Below, one piece after another: positions 19,760-39,589 of a DNA stretch of 39,589 bases. Under the pieces are notes generated by a model. It made no database searches. It was not told where the DNA came from and saw nothing but the letters and a program-made list of their open reading frames with translations. The number at the start of each line of letters is the position of its first letter. Positions within the stretch are counted from its first letter, which is position 1. This stretch comes from Fidelibacterota bacterium (GTDB lineage: Bacteria > Fidelibacterota > Marinisomatia > Marinisomatales > TCS55): positions 1 through 39,589 of the forward strand of contig PBPT01000080.1 in NCBI GenBank assembly GCA_002724735.1, read 5' to 3'. Position numbers and translations under genes: made by a program.

Positions 19760-19990
19760 ATGAATATACTAGGTTTAGCTTCTGGCATCCTCAAGCTATT
19801 TAATAGCGTTGCAGGAATGTTGCGTGAAAAAAATCTTATGGATGCTGGTGCAGCTAAACAGCAGATAAAAGAAATAGCTAAAACAAAAAAGGTTATGCAA
19901 GATGCACGTAAGCATACTGAAGCTGTCCGTGATGCTATGCGCAAGCGTATTGATCACAAGCTGCTCTCTAAGTGGAGTCGAAAGGATTGA
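19760..19990 (+). CDS. i-spanin (Rz-like) candidate
   Basis: 76 residues: an N-terminal hydrophobic helix (ILGLASGILKLFNSVAGML), then a charged coiled-coil region (KQQIKEIAKTKKVMQDARKH and onward). This is the inner-membrane spanin design: membrane anchor plus periplasmic coiled coil. A lipoprotein gene overlaps its 3' half in another frame, the classic Rz/Rz1 layout. Together they would fuse inner and outer membranes at the end of lysis. Confidence 0.7.
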   Translation: MNILGLASGILKLFNSVAGMLREKNLMDAGAAKQQIKEIAKTKKVMQDARKHTEAVRDAMRKRIDHKLLSKWSRKD

Positions 19991-20111
19991 TGCAGGGTGT
20001 TCTATCTGGCGAGAGAATATCCCCAGGATTTCTGCATTAGACACTGATAAAACAATGCGTAGTGTTATATTGCTAAATGAAGCAATGGAAAAAGCCTGTG
20101 CGTCAAACTAG
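19902..20111 (+). CDS. o-spanin (Rz1-like) lipoprotein
   Basis: 69 residues with a signal sequence and lipobox ending LITSC (Cys at residue 21), then CSIWRENIPRISALDTDKT and an N-x-A-x-x-x-A-C end. An outer-membrane lipoprotein embedded out of frame in the upstream coiled-coil gene (89-base overlap) is the hallmark of o-spanins. The end C-S-x-W-x-x-x-x-P-I is typical of alphaproteobacterial phage Rz1-like proteins. Overlaps the next gene by 35 bases. Confidence 0.78.
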   Translation: MHVSILKLSVMLCASVLITSCSLSGVERIDAGCSIWRENIPRISALDTDKTMRSVILLNEAMEKACASN

Positions 20112-26087: not shown

Positions 26088-26726
26088 TTAGTGCGTAGTA
26101 GGTTCTTCTTCCTTTATTTGTTCGTTTCTTTTAGTAATTTCTTCACGATATAAAGCCATCCACTCTAATTCTAACTGATACGCAAAGAAAGCTATGTCCA
26201 TTAATCGGTTAGACCAGCCTTGTGCGAATGTATCGCTACCAAAACAATATCTTGTCATTCTATTTGCTAAATACTGCGTTAGTAACTTGCGAAAATGATA
26301 TGTGTGTATGTTATTGTTTGTGTATTTAAGCAATGCACCTTCTGTTTTTGATCCAAAGATACCGTCTACTTTTAATTCCTCACCAGCAACAGTGTTGATT
26401 GTTCTTTGCAAAACGGAAACGGCTGCTCCCGGCCCTTGATTTATTGAACAGTCGTAAAAAGCTAACGCAAGTCCGGGCGACCAATTCCAAATCCTAAAAG
26501 GTTTGCCGTATTTATTGTAGAGTATCAGATCAATTTCATCGTTTGAGAAGTTCATCAAATCTTCTTTTGTGTACTCTGGATTATACCTCAACGATACGCC
26601 ACGTCTGGTAAAACCACCGGGATCTTCGGGATGGTTGCTGACATCACCTTCCCATTTAGCAATTAAGTTCTTAAAGTTTTGAAATATTGATGCAAGAAAA
26701 AACTCTTCGGTTTTGATGTCAGTCAT
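26088..26726 (-). CDS. endolysin, GH108-type N-acetylmuramidase
   Basis: 212 residues from ATG 26726, chosen because GGAAGGA lies 6 bases upstream and ATGACTGA overlaps the upstream stop; an earlier in-frame ATG at 26756 is less likely. LIAKWEGDVSNHPEDPGG (catalytic E26) then FTRRGVS is the glycosyl hydrolase 108 signature. DCSINQGPGAAVSVLQR and DGIFGSKTEGAL match the attached peptidoglycan-binding type 3 domain. It would cut the cell-wall glycan. No signal peptide, so it needs a holin; two membrane proteins sit directly upstream. Unusually, it is on the early strand, far from the spanin genes. Confidence 0.9.
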   Translation of the reverse strand: MTDIKTEEFFLASIFQNFKNLIAKWEGDVSNHPEDPGGFTRRGVSLRYNPEYTKEDLMNFSNDEIDLILYNKYGKPFRIWNWSPGLALAFYDCSINQGPGAAVSVLQRTINTVAGEELKVDGIFGSKTEGALLKYTNNNIHTYHFRKLLTQYLANRMTRYCFGSDTFAQGWSNRLMDIAFFAYQLELEWMALYREEITKRNEQIKEEEPTTH

Positions 26727-26955
26727 TTGTATTCCTTCCATACACAATTTTAGCAATGTGTTTTGATAGTTCTAGGTTCATTGTAATAAGCAATAACCAG
26801 AACGGTGTAATTACAAAACTAATAACAACGCCTGCAACAAGCGTAGGGTTGATATTAAGGCCAAGCATAAGCCAGAAAATTACGAAAGTAGTAAGCATAT
26901 GCAACACACAAAACACACCTACACGCGCAGTAAACAATTTAGCAATGTATGACAT
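26719..26955 (-). CDS. membrane protein next to endolysin, holin candidate
   Basis: 78 residues with two membrane segments: VGVFCVLHMLTTFVIFWLML and LVAGVVISFVITPFWLLLI, separated by a short turn, with a charged tail (LSKHIAKIVYGRNTND). Start directly abuts the upstream stop, and the stop overlaps the endolysin ATG by 8 bases. Two-segment topology and coupling to the endolysin fit a class II holin, but early-strand membrane proteins can have other roles. Confidence 0.65.
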   Translation of the reverse strand: MSYIAKLFTARVGVFCVLHMLTTFVIFWLMLGLNINPTLVAGVVISFVITPFWLLLITMNLELSKHIAKIVYGRNTND

Positions 26956-27777: not shown

Positions 27778-27985
27778 ATTCTTTTATGTACTGTTCCAGA
27801 TCAGTGTATGCGCAGTTGTATGCGATTTCTTCTGGACAATAATTACCCATCGCAACTAATTCATCTGCAGCATCATGTATTGCCATGAATTGGTTATCCA
27901 TAAGCGTTTTGTGGTGTTGATCTTCTGCTTTTATTCTACTGAAACGATCAGAGAGTTCTTGCCAAGCGTTATAACTAATTATCAT
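27776..27985 (-). CDS. hypothetical protein (69 aa)
   Basis: 69 residues: YNAWQELSDRFSRIKAEDQH, then IHDAADELVAMGNYCPEEIA and a final LEQYIKE. Predicted helical and acidic. The ATG overlaps the DUF932 stop (TAATG), with AGGG before it. Its TAA overlaps the tRNA 5' end by two bases, so tRNA processing would cut its message at the stop codon. Unknown role. Confidence 0.7.
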   Translation of the reverse strand: MIISYNAWQELSDRFSRIKAEDQHHKTLMDNQFMAIHDAADELVAMGNYCPEEIAYNCAYTDLEQYIKE

Positions 27986-28923
27986 TATACTACCCTTAAG
28001 TTAGTTGTTTCGTTTACCATGTCTTTCCACATTGGATGACGTAACACTTTAGCAACTTCTGCGTTGCGTTTACGTTCCATCATGTGTGCTTGACCGCGTG
28101 TTTTGGCGTGTGTAGCCCATTCAGTCATAGCGTTGTAAGCAGCCCAACAATTTTGACCTAATGTGTTAGAGTTAGAATCCCAACACTCGTTGAGTTGTTC
28201 CATACGCATTTTGCTGATTGCAGGGCGTTTATCGTCGTACTCATGCTCTTTGTTGTATGCAATGGTTTTGAGCATAAGATCAGCAAACTTGTTGTAACTG
28301 CATGGTTGTTTGTAGTAACGCTGGTATTTGTCATTTGATTCTTTGAACTTTTCAATACCTTCGCGTAGTTGTTCAGCATACTCACGCACATTGAGTACAG
28401 CGTTCGTTGTGTGTCGTGTGTATGCACGAACATAGTAGTCAGGTTGTGTCATGCCGTTGAGACATACAAGGCGTTGACCGCTGGCATTTAGTTGCAAAGC
28501 CCACTTGCCGTTGTAACTGTCAAAGTGGTCGATCTGAAAGCAAACAACGTCGCCAACAACAGGCTCGATTGTTATGTTGGGAAAAGTGATTTGTCTACGC
28601 ATTGTAGAGCCATTGTCAAACACCTTTGTATTAGATGTGTAACGCAAGCCAGCATCGTCTAACACATAGTCAGTAGCTTCCATTGTACGAGCATATGGTA
28701 TCGGCATAGTACGAGGGCCGACAATGCCTAAGTGTTCGTTAGTGTCAGTGCGTACAACTACTCTTGCATGACGAGCATCGAGTTCGTTTTCTATGCCAGT
28801 GTCAATAGCACGACTATATAGCGGTAGTACATCGATTGGGAAGTCAGCACAGTTGCCTGATGCGTCACTTGCAATAGCATAGTTATCGTGTTTGGTTGGT
28901 AAGTCTGCGTGTAAATAATTCAT
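27985..28923 (-). CDS. DUF932 phage/plasmid-like protein
   Basis: 312 residues. The blocks VVVRTDTNEHLGIVGPRTMP, FDNGSTMRRQITFPN, FDSYNGKWALQLNASGQRLV and CLNGM match the DUF932 / phage-plasmid TIGR03299 family seen in many phages and plasmids. Molecular role is not established; such proteins are often among the first expressed. Follows the RTX-like gene by 8 bases and is coupled to the next gene. Confidence 0.85.
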   Translation of the reverse strand: MNYLHADLPTKHDNYAIASDASGNCADFPIDVLPLYSRAIDTGIENELDARHARVVVRTDTNEHLGIVGPRTMPIPYARTMEATDYVLDDAGLRYTSNTKVFDNGSTMRRQITFPNITIEPVVGDVVCFQIDHFDSYNGKWALQLNASGQRLVCLNGMTQPDYYVRAYTRHTTNAVLNVREYAEQLREGIEKFKESNDKYQRYYKQPCSYNKFADLMLKTIAYNKEHEYDDKRPAISKMRMEQLNECWDSNSNTLGQNCWAAYNAMTEWATHAKTRGQAHMMERKRNAEVAKVLRHPMWKDMVNETTNLRVV

Positions 28924-28931
28924 AGTGGCTC

Positions 28932-29891
28932 CTATATTGGGAATAAATCAAATTCACTTGGTTTGTCGATTGATGAGCTAAACACGTTTGCGTCAACGCC
29001 TAACAGTGTTATCTCTCCGTGAACATTGTCATAGTCAATTACTATTCTAGTGTCTTCTCCTTCCGAAGTTATTGATACAAAAGAACTTTCTAGGTCGAGC
29101 GTAACGTCATGATTCGGTATACGCACATTAAGAAGGTCATTCTCAGGGTCGAAATCAATAATCGTGCTGTTACCGTAATGAGGGCGAAAGTCCATCGCAA
29201 AACTAGATGAGCCGTTTGCATAAAAATTAAAAATATCTTTACCATTGCCTCCCGATAAGAGTGTCTCTCCACTCTCGCTATTTGTCTTTGTGGTATTAAT
29301 AATGTCATTGCCATCTCCCGCATACACTTCGATATGGTCTGTTGTTACATTGATTGTGTCATTGCCTTCCCACGTAAAAATGTCTTGTGAGTTGATTGTT
29401 ACAATGTCGTTCGCTTTGTCACCTTGAAAGTTTTCGTGTGGTGCAGCCGCTTTAAATGCAATGCCCTCGTATATAAGATGTGGTAAGTTGTTGTTTATAA
29501 ACGCAAATTCGTCTACATCGTTTGTGTAGAAGTACGATCCTTCTGTGTCGTGTCTAAAGCGATGTACGTCGGGTAATCCGTGATCATCTGATGTTGTAAA
29601 CGCAACACCCTCGTATCTGTAATGGGGCAGTTGATTGTTAATATAGGCGAACTCGTTGGCGTCAGCTGTAAGTATATGATGTCCTTTCTCTGTGTGGAAA
29701 AAGCGATGCACTTCTGTATCGCCTGTTACAGTCATAAACTTTGGTTCTTCGTACTGCCATGCTCCTGTGTTACGCAGTACACCAGCTTCGTTAACGTCTG
29801 TAGTGTACAAATGCGTTGTTGTGTCAGTGTTGTACAGCCGATGCACAGTCGTTGTTTCGACGGCTGCAAAGTTAAGAAAACGATCAACCAT
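28932..29891 (-). CDS. DUF5648-repeat and RTX-like calcium-binding protein
   Basis: 319 residues in two parts. Three repeats of about 45 residues (roughly 14-54, 60-100, 108-147) share V-H-R-F-x-x-x-x-x-x-x-x-Y-T-x-D-x-x-E and end in Y-E-G-x-A-F, the DUF5648 lipase-like repeat pattern. Then RTX-type Gly/Asp turns follow (WEGNDTINV, YAGDGNDII, LLSGGNGKDIF, about 174-221) and an acidic tail. RTX repeats fold only with external calcium, so the protein is likely to work outside the cell or on the virion. No signal peptide; the C-terminus could act as a type I secretion signal. Unusual for an early-strand phage gene. Confidence 0.8.
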   Translation of the reverse strand: MVDRFLNFAAVETTTVHRLYNTDTTTHLYTTDVNEAGVLRNTGAWQYEEPKFMTVTGDTEVHRFFHTEKGHHILTADANEFAYINNQLPHYRYEGVAFTTSDDHGLPDVHRFRHDTEGSYFYTNDVDEFAFINNNLPHLIYEGIAFKAAAPHENFQGDKANDIVTINSQDIFTWEGNDTINVTTDHIEVYAGDGNDIINTTKTNSESGETLLSGGNGKDIFNFYANGSSSFAMDFRPHYGNSTIIDFDPENDLLNVRIPNHDVTLDLESSFVSITSEGEDTRIVIDYDNVHGEITLLGVDANVFSSSIDKPSEFDLFPI

Positions 29892-31739: not shown

Positions 31740-32165
31740 ATGAACAACGAAACCTTCCAAGCACCTACAGTCCAAGCCGAAAAGGAACTAGACAAGCTAG
31801 CTAGTAAACTAACGCCTTTTCAAAGAAGATTCGCAGATGTCATGGCTATCGGTAACGTACGCAGTCGAGCAGAAGCTGTGAGACAAGCAGGAAGTAAGGC
31901 TAAAAGACCTTCGAGCGTAGCTCACAAGCTTATGCAAAACCCTGTCATTTTAGAGTACATCAGGCACGCAGTAACCAGTCGTTTAGGAACTGACATGGTT
32001 GCTTCAGCAGTACATACCATGTCTCAACTCATCCACGAAGCGGACGAAGACAAGGTAAGGTTTGCAGCAGCCAAAGACACCCTAGATCGTATGGGCATGA
32101 GAGCGCCAGAGAGGAAACAAGTTCACCACTCAGGCCAAGTCAGTGTCCATATAGACCTAGGGTAA
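31740..32165 (+). CDS. terS: terminase small subunit
   Basis: 141 residues. LTPFQRRFADVMAIGNVRSR then AEAVRQAGSKAKRPSSVAHK is the N-terminal helix-turn-helix of Terminase_2-like small subunits, followed by NPVILEYIRHAVTSRL. The end VRFAAAKDTLDRMGMRAPER is also typical. It should recognise the packaging site and load TerL. First gene of the late strand; the next 150 bases hold strong inverted repeats that could be its recognition site. Confidence 0.8.
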   Translation: MNNETFQAPTVQAEKELDKLASKLTPFQRRFADVMAIGNVRSRAEAVRQAGSKAKRPSSVAHKLMQNPVILEYIRHAVTSRLGTDMVASAVHTMSQLIHEADEDKVRFAAAKDTLDRMGMRAPERKQVHHSGQVSVHIDLG

Positions 32166-32315
32166 CTTTTAGTCAGTCGGATTGACGGACGGTATATTTA
32201 AAGGGGGGGTTTAAAAAACAGGCCGAATCAATCCTGACTTCACTAATACACACACAATTTAAGTTTTTCTAAAGGGCCAAAAAAAAATTTTTTTTAAAAC
32301 CTTTAGGGCTTCTTT
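32166..32315. repeat. inverted-repeat region after small terminase, candidate packaging site
   Basis: 150 bases without a gene. A 12-bp inverted repeat with a two-base insertion (left arm 32171-32185, right arm TCAATCCTGACT at 32228-32239) encloses TTTAAA-G7-TTTAAA (32197-32215). Next to it CTAAAGG and CCTTTAG (32269-32275, 32300-32306) flank a run of nine A then eight T. Such symmetric, bent, AT-rich DNA beside terS fits a pac/cos or other protein-binding site. The second palindrome might also weaken transcription both ways. Confidence 0.55.
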
Positions 32316-32669
32316 ATGGAACTGTCTGCGTTGAACCAGATTTCTTTTGATATAGCGACATTAGCTACGCCTTTGATTGGTATAAGCATTGCTATGTTGT
32401 TTGGTTTTGCTCTTAAGGATTTTATAAACAATACGATATATGGCATAAAGTTTATCTGTGCCGAGCATTGGGCTGCGGGACAAGAAGTAATCCTTGAAGG
32501 AAAAAGAGCAAGAATAATAAAAGTGGGTTTCTACGAAACCGTATTTCAAGTAGAGTGTCCAAATGGTCGTGTTCTGTGGAGATACATTGCAAACACGAAC
32601 CTAGTTAATCTTGATATAAGCCGTGTTATTAGAGAGGGGGATAATAATGGGCATACAGGACAATGTTGA
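32316..32669 (+). CDS. mini MscS-like membrane protein
   Basis: 117 residues. The order matches the core of MscS channels: a Gly/Ala-rich pore-like helix (GISIAMLFGFALKDFINNT, about 22-40), YGIKF, a beta domain beginning W-A-A-G-Q-E-V-I-L-E-G (52-62), ARIIKVGFYETVFQVE, then the IANTNL block (91-96) at the place of the MscS I-P-N-x-x-L motif. MscS itself is about 286 residues with three membrane helices; this has one clear span and no C-terminal vestibule. It may gate or perturb the host membrane, or modify host MscS heptamers. Assignment by pattern only. Confidence 0.65.
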   Translation: MELSALNQISFDIATLATPLIGISIAMLFGFALKDFINNTIYGIKFICAEHWAAGQEVILEGKRARIIKVGFYETVFQVECPNGRVLWRYIANTNLVNLDISRVIREGDNNGHTGQC

Positions 32670-32802
32670 AGTGTGTGAAAAATGCGGGTGCGAACTTGAT
32701 CCTCGCGGAAATCATTATGTGAATGGGCATTTGCAGTGTGCTTGTGGCAAGAACATAGAAGAGTGTTGCCAAGGCGAAACAGCTAATGAGTTATTAGATT
32801 AG
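32647..32802 (+). CDS. small zinc-ribbon-like protein (51 aa)
   Basis: 51 codons. Seven Cys in CEKCGC, CAC and ECC groups plus two His give a zinc-ribbon look: C-x2-C-x-C, then H-x-x-x-x-x-H, C-x-C, C-C. GAGGGGG lies just before the ATG. It overlaps the MscS-like gene by 23 bases in another frame. Stop is followed within two bases by the TTGTGCGTA motif. Probably a small DNA- or RNA-contacting protein. Confidence 0.65.
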   Translation: MGIQDNVEVCEKCGCELDPRGNHYVNGHLQCACGKNIEECCQGETANELLD

Positions 32803-39445: not shown

Positions 39446-39589
39446 CGGCTATAAATTTGAATACAAGCCGGGTGGTGATGTTCTCAAAAAATTTCTAAAA
39501 GACGATGCTTTTGTTAGAGGCATAAGGGGGCCAGTGGGGTCTGGCAAATCCGTGAGTTGTTGCATTGAAGTAATGCGCAGGGCTTGTCA
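39426..39589 (+). CDS. terL: terminase large subunit (5' part, continues at base 1)
   Basis: The true start: ATG 39426, within the end of the upstream gene, with MQENLTNGYKFEYKPGGD before the part seen at base 2. The frame passes the junction at 39490/1 unbroken and the final 99 bases repeat 1-99, ending after the Walker A motif. See the entry at 1-1513 for the enzyme. Confidence 0.9.
   Translation, partial: MQENLTNGYKFEYKPGGDVLKKFLKDDAFVRGIRGPVGSGKSVSCCIEVMRRAC
39491..39589. repeat. terminal direct repeat, right copy
   Basis: Exact copy of 1-99. It carries the codons for the terminase Walker A region, so the window shows a circular genome opened within terL. Confidence 0.95.

Follow-up and report, generated by a model that had tools for sequence, protein, structure and literature searches.

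The window analysed here, the whole stretch of 39,589 nucleotides of contig PBPT01000080.1, carries an open reading frame for a minimal core protein resembling the mechanosensitive channel MscS (hereafter MscSL). It lies directly after the gene for the terminase small subunit (terS) and is followed by fibre-type genes (Table 1). Its position, its length of 117 residues and its terS neighbour are exactly those given in the initial annotation of this DNA, which had been made from the letters alone. The inverted repeat in the gap between terS and MscSL looks like a terminator but folds no better than its shuffled versions, and it was rejected as one. The small frame that overlaps the 3′ end of MscSL has homologues in three related loci (L004, L006 and L118), where it lies elsewhere and on the opposite strand. 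The phage has lysis genes of its own, and MscSL does not adjoin them.

Table 1. Features of the window that bear on MscSL (positions are those of the window; aa, amino acids; TM, transmembrane)
Feature	Position	Strand	Remarks
MscSL open reading frame, 117 aa	32316..32669	+	TM3-like TM helix and MscS-type beta domain
MscSL codons 16-48	32361..32459	+	TM helix and cytoplasmic extension; GxxxAxxxG (G22, A26, G30); invariant K34-D35, equivalent to KD at MscS 112-113
MscSL codons 56-103	32481..32624	+	Beta domain; IAN block (residues 91-93), equivalent to MscS IPN
Terminase small subunit (terS), upstream neighbour of MscSL	31740..32165	+	PHROG 51, E 2e-10; Pfam Terminase_2 at cut-off
A/T-rich inverted repeat in the terS-MscSL gap	32268..32308	+	Terminator-like look; folding against shuffles z -0.81
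Small CxxC-type (zinc-ribbon-like) frame overlapping the MscSL 3′ end	32647..32802	+	
GH108 endolysin of the window phage	26088..26756	-	Away from MscSL
Rz1-like o-spanin of the window phage	19902..20111	+	Away from MscSL; PHROG 1275, E 1.3e-5

The two ends of the window are an exact repeat of 99 bp (1-99 and 39491-39589) and the terminase large subunit gene (terL) is in frame across them; the contig is therefore circular, and it is probably a complete circular phage genome. The phage is of the podovirus type, with a PF12236 head-tail connector and a PF19821 capsid protein. The contig was binned (as C75) in a bacterial metagenome-assembled genome (MAG) of 2.36 Mb, and when the rest of this MAG was searched as well, another MscSL copy, 33% identical to that of the window, turned up on contig C57 (335231 bp; loci L108 and L109). 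The stretches of C57 that were inspected read as those of a large T4-like phage and encode a clamp loader, PhoH, ThyX and GroES-like, DnaJ and ClpA-like proteins. Both phages look mis-binned, and the MAG is thus no proof of the host. Among the minus-strand genes of the window, 27985-28923 encodes a DUF932 protein (PF06067, E 3.7e-19), of a family frequent in phages and plasmids, and 28932-29891 encodes a protein of 319 residues in which DUF5648 repeats (PF18885, E 1.3e-22) are followed by RTX-like GGxGxD repeats of the calcium-binding type, which is unusual for a phage.

Homologues of the window type were found in seven IMG/VR loci (L001-L007) and in one contig of a Halobacteriovorax MAG (L118), all of them in the terS and fibre context. 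Because these homologues keep the position of the gene, and because pairwise dN/dS is 0 to about 0.07 (dN is about 0.16 or less, and most pairs approach saturation at synonymous sites), the window frame is a real gene under strong purifying selection. A family search seeded from the C57 copy yielded 66 loci and later 140, of which 80 were kept. The resulting viral family comprises at least 66 distinct full-length sequences of 110-150 residues, 37 of them at less than 92% identity, and its members are all similarly short. Sixteen columns are invariant, including P21, D37, G45, F48, G57, V60, A67, I69, K71, G73, W94-R95-Y96 and N99 (numbered as in P0003, the member at L009:1474-1893). Across the family the beta domain is much better conserved than the helix, and of all groups the clade of the window protein diverges most.

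The initial annotation had described this protein as a phage-encoded minimal MscS-like core, made of a pore-like Gly/Ala helix and an MscS-type beta domain with an IPN-like block. When the window protein alone was compared with Pfam and NCBIfam, no MscS similarity was detected; such single-sequence scans are blind here, so that the similarity needs a family profile or a fold in order to be seen. A phmmer search of PDB with the same protein nevertheless returned 15 matches at E ≤ 10, all of them to MscS (best E 0.007), with alignments that stay in register across both pore helix and beta domain. With the family profile the relationship became evident, as hhalign matched it to an alignment of E. 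coli MscS and 29 MscS proteins from the MAG and its relatives with 96% probability, E 2-3e-9 and a score of 60-62, while 20 column-shuffled and two reversed profiles scored 25.6 or less. Conversely, an MscS HMM recovered 32/37 family members at E < 0.01 in a search space of 20,000 sequences, with the window protein itself at 0.015. The Pfam family MS_channel_2nd gave weak matches, below its cut-off, in 8 of 22 members (E 0.02-0.1).

The sequence match to MscS spans TM3 and the TM3a/3b junction (KD, G121), and both the KD (112-113) and the PN (166-167) of MscS align with invariant or near-invariant residues of the family. The window protein reads IAN where the annotation had seen something like IPN, yet 33 of the 37 members have the proline at this position, which confirms the assignment of the block. 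The Gly/Ala helix has stood only in part. The window protein does have the spaced residues G22-x3-A26-x3-G30, but of these only the one equivalent to G108 of MscS is small in all 37 relatives. The positions equivalent to G101 and G104 are mostly large, and the Gly/Ala packing pattern of MscS TM3a (G101, G104, G108 and alanines) is not a property of the family.

The predicted structures agree with the profile comparison and with the order of one hydrophobic helix and then beta strands that had been read from the window sequence. AlphaFold2 models the window protein as a helix (residues 2-48) and four strands (57-60, 63-70, 74-80 and 86-92), with a pLDDT of 71 and a pTM of 0.50, and P0003 as one long helix followed by a small beta domain (pLDDT 82, pTM 0.53). 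When these monomer models were compared with PDB by Foldseek, MscS-family channels made up all of the top 50 matches for the window protein and 49 of 50 for P0003, as the annotation's MscS-like fold would have it. With E-values near 1e-3 and TM-scores near 0.5 the matches are modest, which is to be expected of such small models, but no rival fold competed. The annotation's MscS-like core thus withstood both of the checks that could have refuted it, by profile and by modelled fold. Chance similarity is ruled out by the shuffled and reversed controls together with the two fold searches, and we hold with high confidence that MscSL is a core of the MscS superfamily.

What this core retains is a short N-terminus, a single TM helix, the equivalent of TM3, and the cytoplasmic beta domain with its PN block. 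TM1 and TM2 are absent, since the open frame around the window gene has only 120 codons, and the C-terminal alpha/beta cage is missing, the protein ending just past the beta domain. A full-length MscS that had been clipped, or given the wrong start, is ruled out by the length of this frame and by the similar length of all relatives.

The genes around MscSL differ between phage groups. In large T4-like phages (approximately 17 contigs and 12 distinct sequences, C57 included) the genes for two spanins, an Rz-like i-spanin and an Rz1-like o-spanin, lie some 0.7-3.5 kb upstream of it and are preceded, where this could be resolved, by a GH108 or GH19 endolysin. The order of this cassette is endolysin, i-spanin, o-spanin, TM protein, MscSL and 2-TM protein; a one-TM protein (TM94) often precedes MscSL, and the 2-TM protein and DnaJ and ClpA-like genes come after it. 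In one such gap between o-spanin and MscSL (L150:3823-4996) the gene for a protein of the MotA/TolQ/ExbB type (PF01618, E 1.9e-9) is accompanied by that for a membrane protein which could be its partner, possibly a proton-channel pair in the lysis region. Some 40 other T4-like loci have a DNA end protector, tail tube, baseplate hub, MscSL, the 2-TM protein and a large unknown protein, and in one of these genomes a spanin lies about 37 kb from MscSL. Elsewhere MscSL is found between the genes for a gp23-type capsid protein and the tail tube (L148) or just ahead of that for the major head protein (L147). The holin-like setting beside endolysin and spanins thus belongs to the large-phage group and not to the window phage or to most T4-like loci; late genes are the feature common to all contexts. 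The lysis linkage may represent one ancestral arrangement, as the approximately 17 contigs also share the order of PhoH, DnaJ and ClpA.

Of 93 eligible loci, 67 have the gene for the small 2-TM protein (PHROG 10198; L047:3311-3607, KVP40.0094) directly after MscSL (42 of 62 when distinct sequences are counted), and the two genes mostly overlap by 1-41 nt, whereas one MscSL subclade has a different 2-TM frame in that place and a search of the window phage for this partner found none (E ≥ 0.3). The 2-TM protein occurs in 360 records of isolated phages, mostly of Vibrio, and is 'hypothetical' wherever annotated; MscSL is absent from the three of these that were checked (KVP40, C48C1 and Vibrio D2), though the 2-TM protein is present. 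Its second helix is of an invariant VGAGAA.FGLY type, and the protein is a candidate holin-like protein; roseophage CRP-13 encodes a distant relative three genes from a putative endolysin. We also considered a 'split MscS', in which the 2-TM protein would provide TM1 and TM2 or a second pore helix. By eye the second helix of this protein (QSAFVSVIVGAGAAWFGLY) resembles TM3a, but its hhalign comparison with MscS stayed at noise (score 13, with shuffles at 10-16), and the idea was abandoned.

The homology is shown, whereas oligomerisation, conductance, sensing of tension or potential and a role in lysis are inferred. By analogy with MscS and with TcMscS, a miniature MscS of Trypanosoma cruzi, the beta domains would hold the subunits together as a ring, probably a heptameric one, while the helices would bundle through the inner membrane as a pore. 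Made among the late genes, MscSL would then either form a small pore in the inner membrane or regulate one built with the co-encoded 2-TM protein, and might help to set or trigger the permeabilisation of the membrane at lysis, timed with the endolysin and the spanins. We give a probability of roughly 40% to this reading of MscSL as a minimal oligomer of the MscS type that forms or regulates an inner-membrane pore at lysis. It is preferred because of the recurrent linkage to endolysin and spanins and the coupled small membrane protein, so that the lysis role proposed in the initial annotation has gained circumstantial support from the large T4-like phages. It has to contend with the approximately 40 T4-like loci where MscSL accompanies baseplate genes, with the window phage, where it stands away from the lysis genes and no 2-TM partner was found, and with a helix that retains little of the Gly/Ala pattern of the MscS pore. 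A narrower form of the same reading, which we regard as doubtful, is that MscSL and the translationally coupled 2-TM protein are a holin or holin timer of marine phages, membrane tension or potential in late infection setting the moment of lysis. If true, this would be a new kind of phage lysis pore, made from one helix and a beta ring.

The late-gene position in all contexts would also suit an osmotic safety valve, akin to the role in osmotic stress that the annotation had put forward: a minimal mechanosensitive pore supplied by the phage so that a swollen cell with a weakened envelope does not burst before the progeny are ready. Such a valve would have its direct functional analogy in MscS and TcMscS; however, MscSL lacks TM1-TM2, the tension-sensing paddle of MscS, and the MAG, whose standing as host is unproven, already has three full MscS genes. 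We consider this unlikely. Slightly less probable still is a membrane-anchored oligomer without a pore, whose MscS-type beta ring would organise the 2-TM protein, the spanins or the DnaJ and ClpA of the cassette. The far better conservation of the beta domain than of the helix, the repeated adjacency of the 2-TM protein, DnaJ and ClpA, and the absence of most of the pore pattern all speak for such a scaffold, whereas the invariant KD and the small residue at the G108 position are what would be expected of a helix that keeps the geometry of TM3.

The head, tail tube, baseplate hub and tape-measure-like neighbours in several phage types could instead point to a small ring in the particle or in the channel for DNA entry, but other phages have lysis genes around MscSL, and we know of no virion protein that combines a single TM with the beta domain of MscS; we think it improbable that MscSL is a part of the virion or of the ejection machinery. 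We think it just as improbable that MscSL interferes, either by co-assembling with the host MscS and poisoning it, as the annotation had also proposed, or in superinfection exclusion. It does have in common with MscS a ring-forming domain, and 11 of 22 members gave weak Pfam matches to SieB (best E 0.015). Those matches cover only a stretch of approximately 31 residues around the hydrophobic helix and, among the ones listed, reach at most 15 bits against a cut-off of 26, and membership of the SieB family (PF14163) was rejected. With about 20% identity to the MscS proteins tested, no close match to a host MscS, nothing to suggest that it was recently captured from a host and a late rather than early gene context, the poisoning of host MscS found no specific support. 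Among these alternatives the lysis pore or pore regulator remains the reading that we prefer.

MscSL was absent from isolated phages (50,697 records, three queries), and a peptide-pattern scan of 84,980 species genomes for cellular homologues found only L118, a MAG contig of the window phage type. No PHROG or Pfam family matched the MscSL family above threshold and no description of it was found in the literature. The analysis supplies a hypothesis of function for a family absent from Pfam, PHROGs and the isolated phage records searched, and makes MscSL a candidate lysis membrane protein for uncultured marine phages, whether T4-like, very large or podovirus-like.

Phage holins are also small inner-membrane proteins, and in one phage group MscSL lies beside endolysin and spanins; to our knowledge, none of the known holins is an MscS homologue. 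Virus-encoded channels are not without parallel, since giant viruses are reported to carry mechanosensitive channels (PMC6163359) and Caudoviricetes metagenomes to contain MscL-type genes (PMC13288924), and relative to both the reduced MscS core of phages appears to be new. The MscS-like proteins of the Aureococcus anophagefferens virus and of Sylvanvirus (PMC6163359) have the MscS-type fold, as a Foldseek match in BFVD indicates, but they are longer (261 and 651 residues, the protein of the Aureococcus virus having three predicted TMs), belong to viruses of eukaryotes and fall outside the MscSL family.

Compared with MscS of E. coli (PF00924), MscSL has the TM3-type helix, the KD at the TM3a/TM3b junction, the small residue at G108, the same order of the beta domain and the PN block; unlike it, MscSL has neither TM1 and TM2 nor the cage that in MscS holds the side portals, and the two are only about 20% identical. 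It is therefore a member of the MscS superfamily by its beta domain and TM3, and not a classical MscS channel. Short MscS proteins (the PDB 9sdg group, 171 residues, and L102, 177 residues) are among the nearest precedents, with a C-terminal beta domain, no cage and a weak sequence match, but they retain TM helices N-terminal to the pore helix. L102 (G020:C41) is a bacterial cage-less mini-MscS from a genome of the MAG's order, and its pore motif, GFALKD, is like that of the window protein. The other near precedent is TcMscS (PDB 9bgq and 9bgt), matched by both MscSL models in Foldseek, which likewise consists of a pore helix and a beta domain without a cage. This eukaryotic protein is a proven heptameric mechanosensitive channel that has two membrane helices and an N helix and lacks the cage and TM1 (PMC12334622), in contrast to the one helix of MscSL, and by analogy it may serve as the precedent for a working channel without either. 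MscSL would rank among the smallest natural MscS folds, below TcMscS, and would allow a direct test of how little suffices to make a pore of the MscS type and to sense tension.
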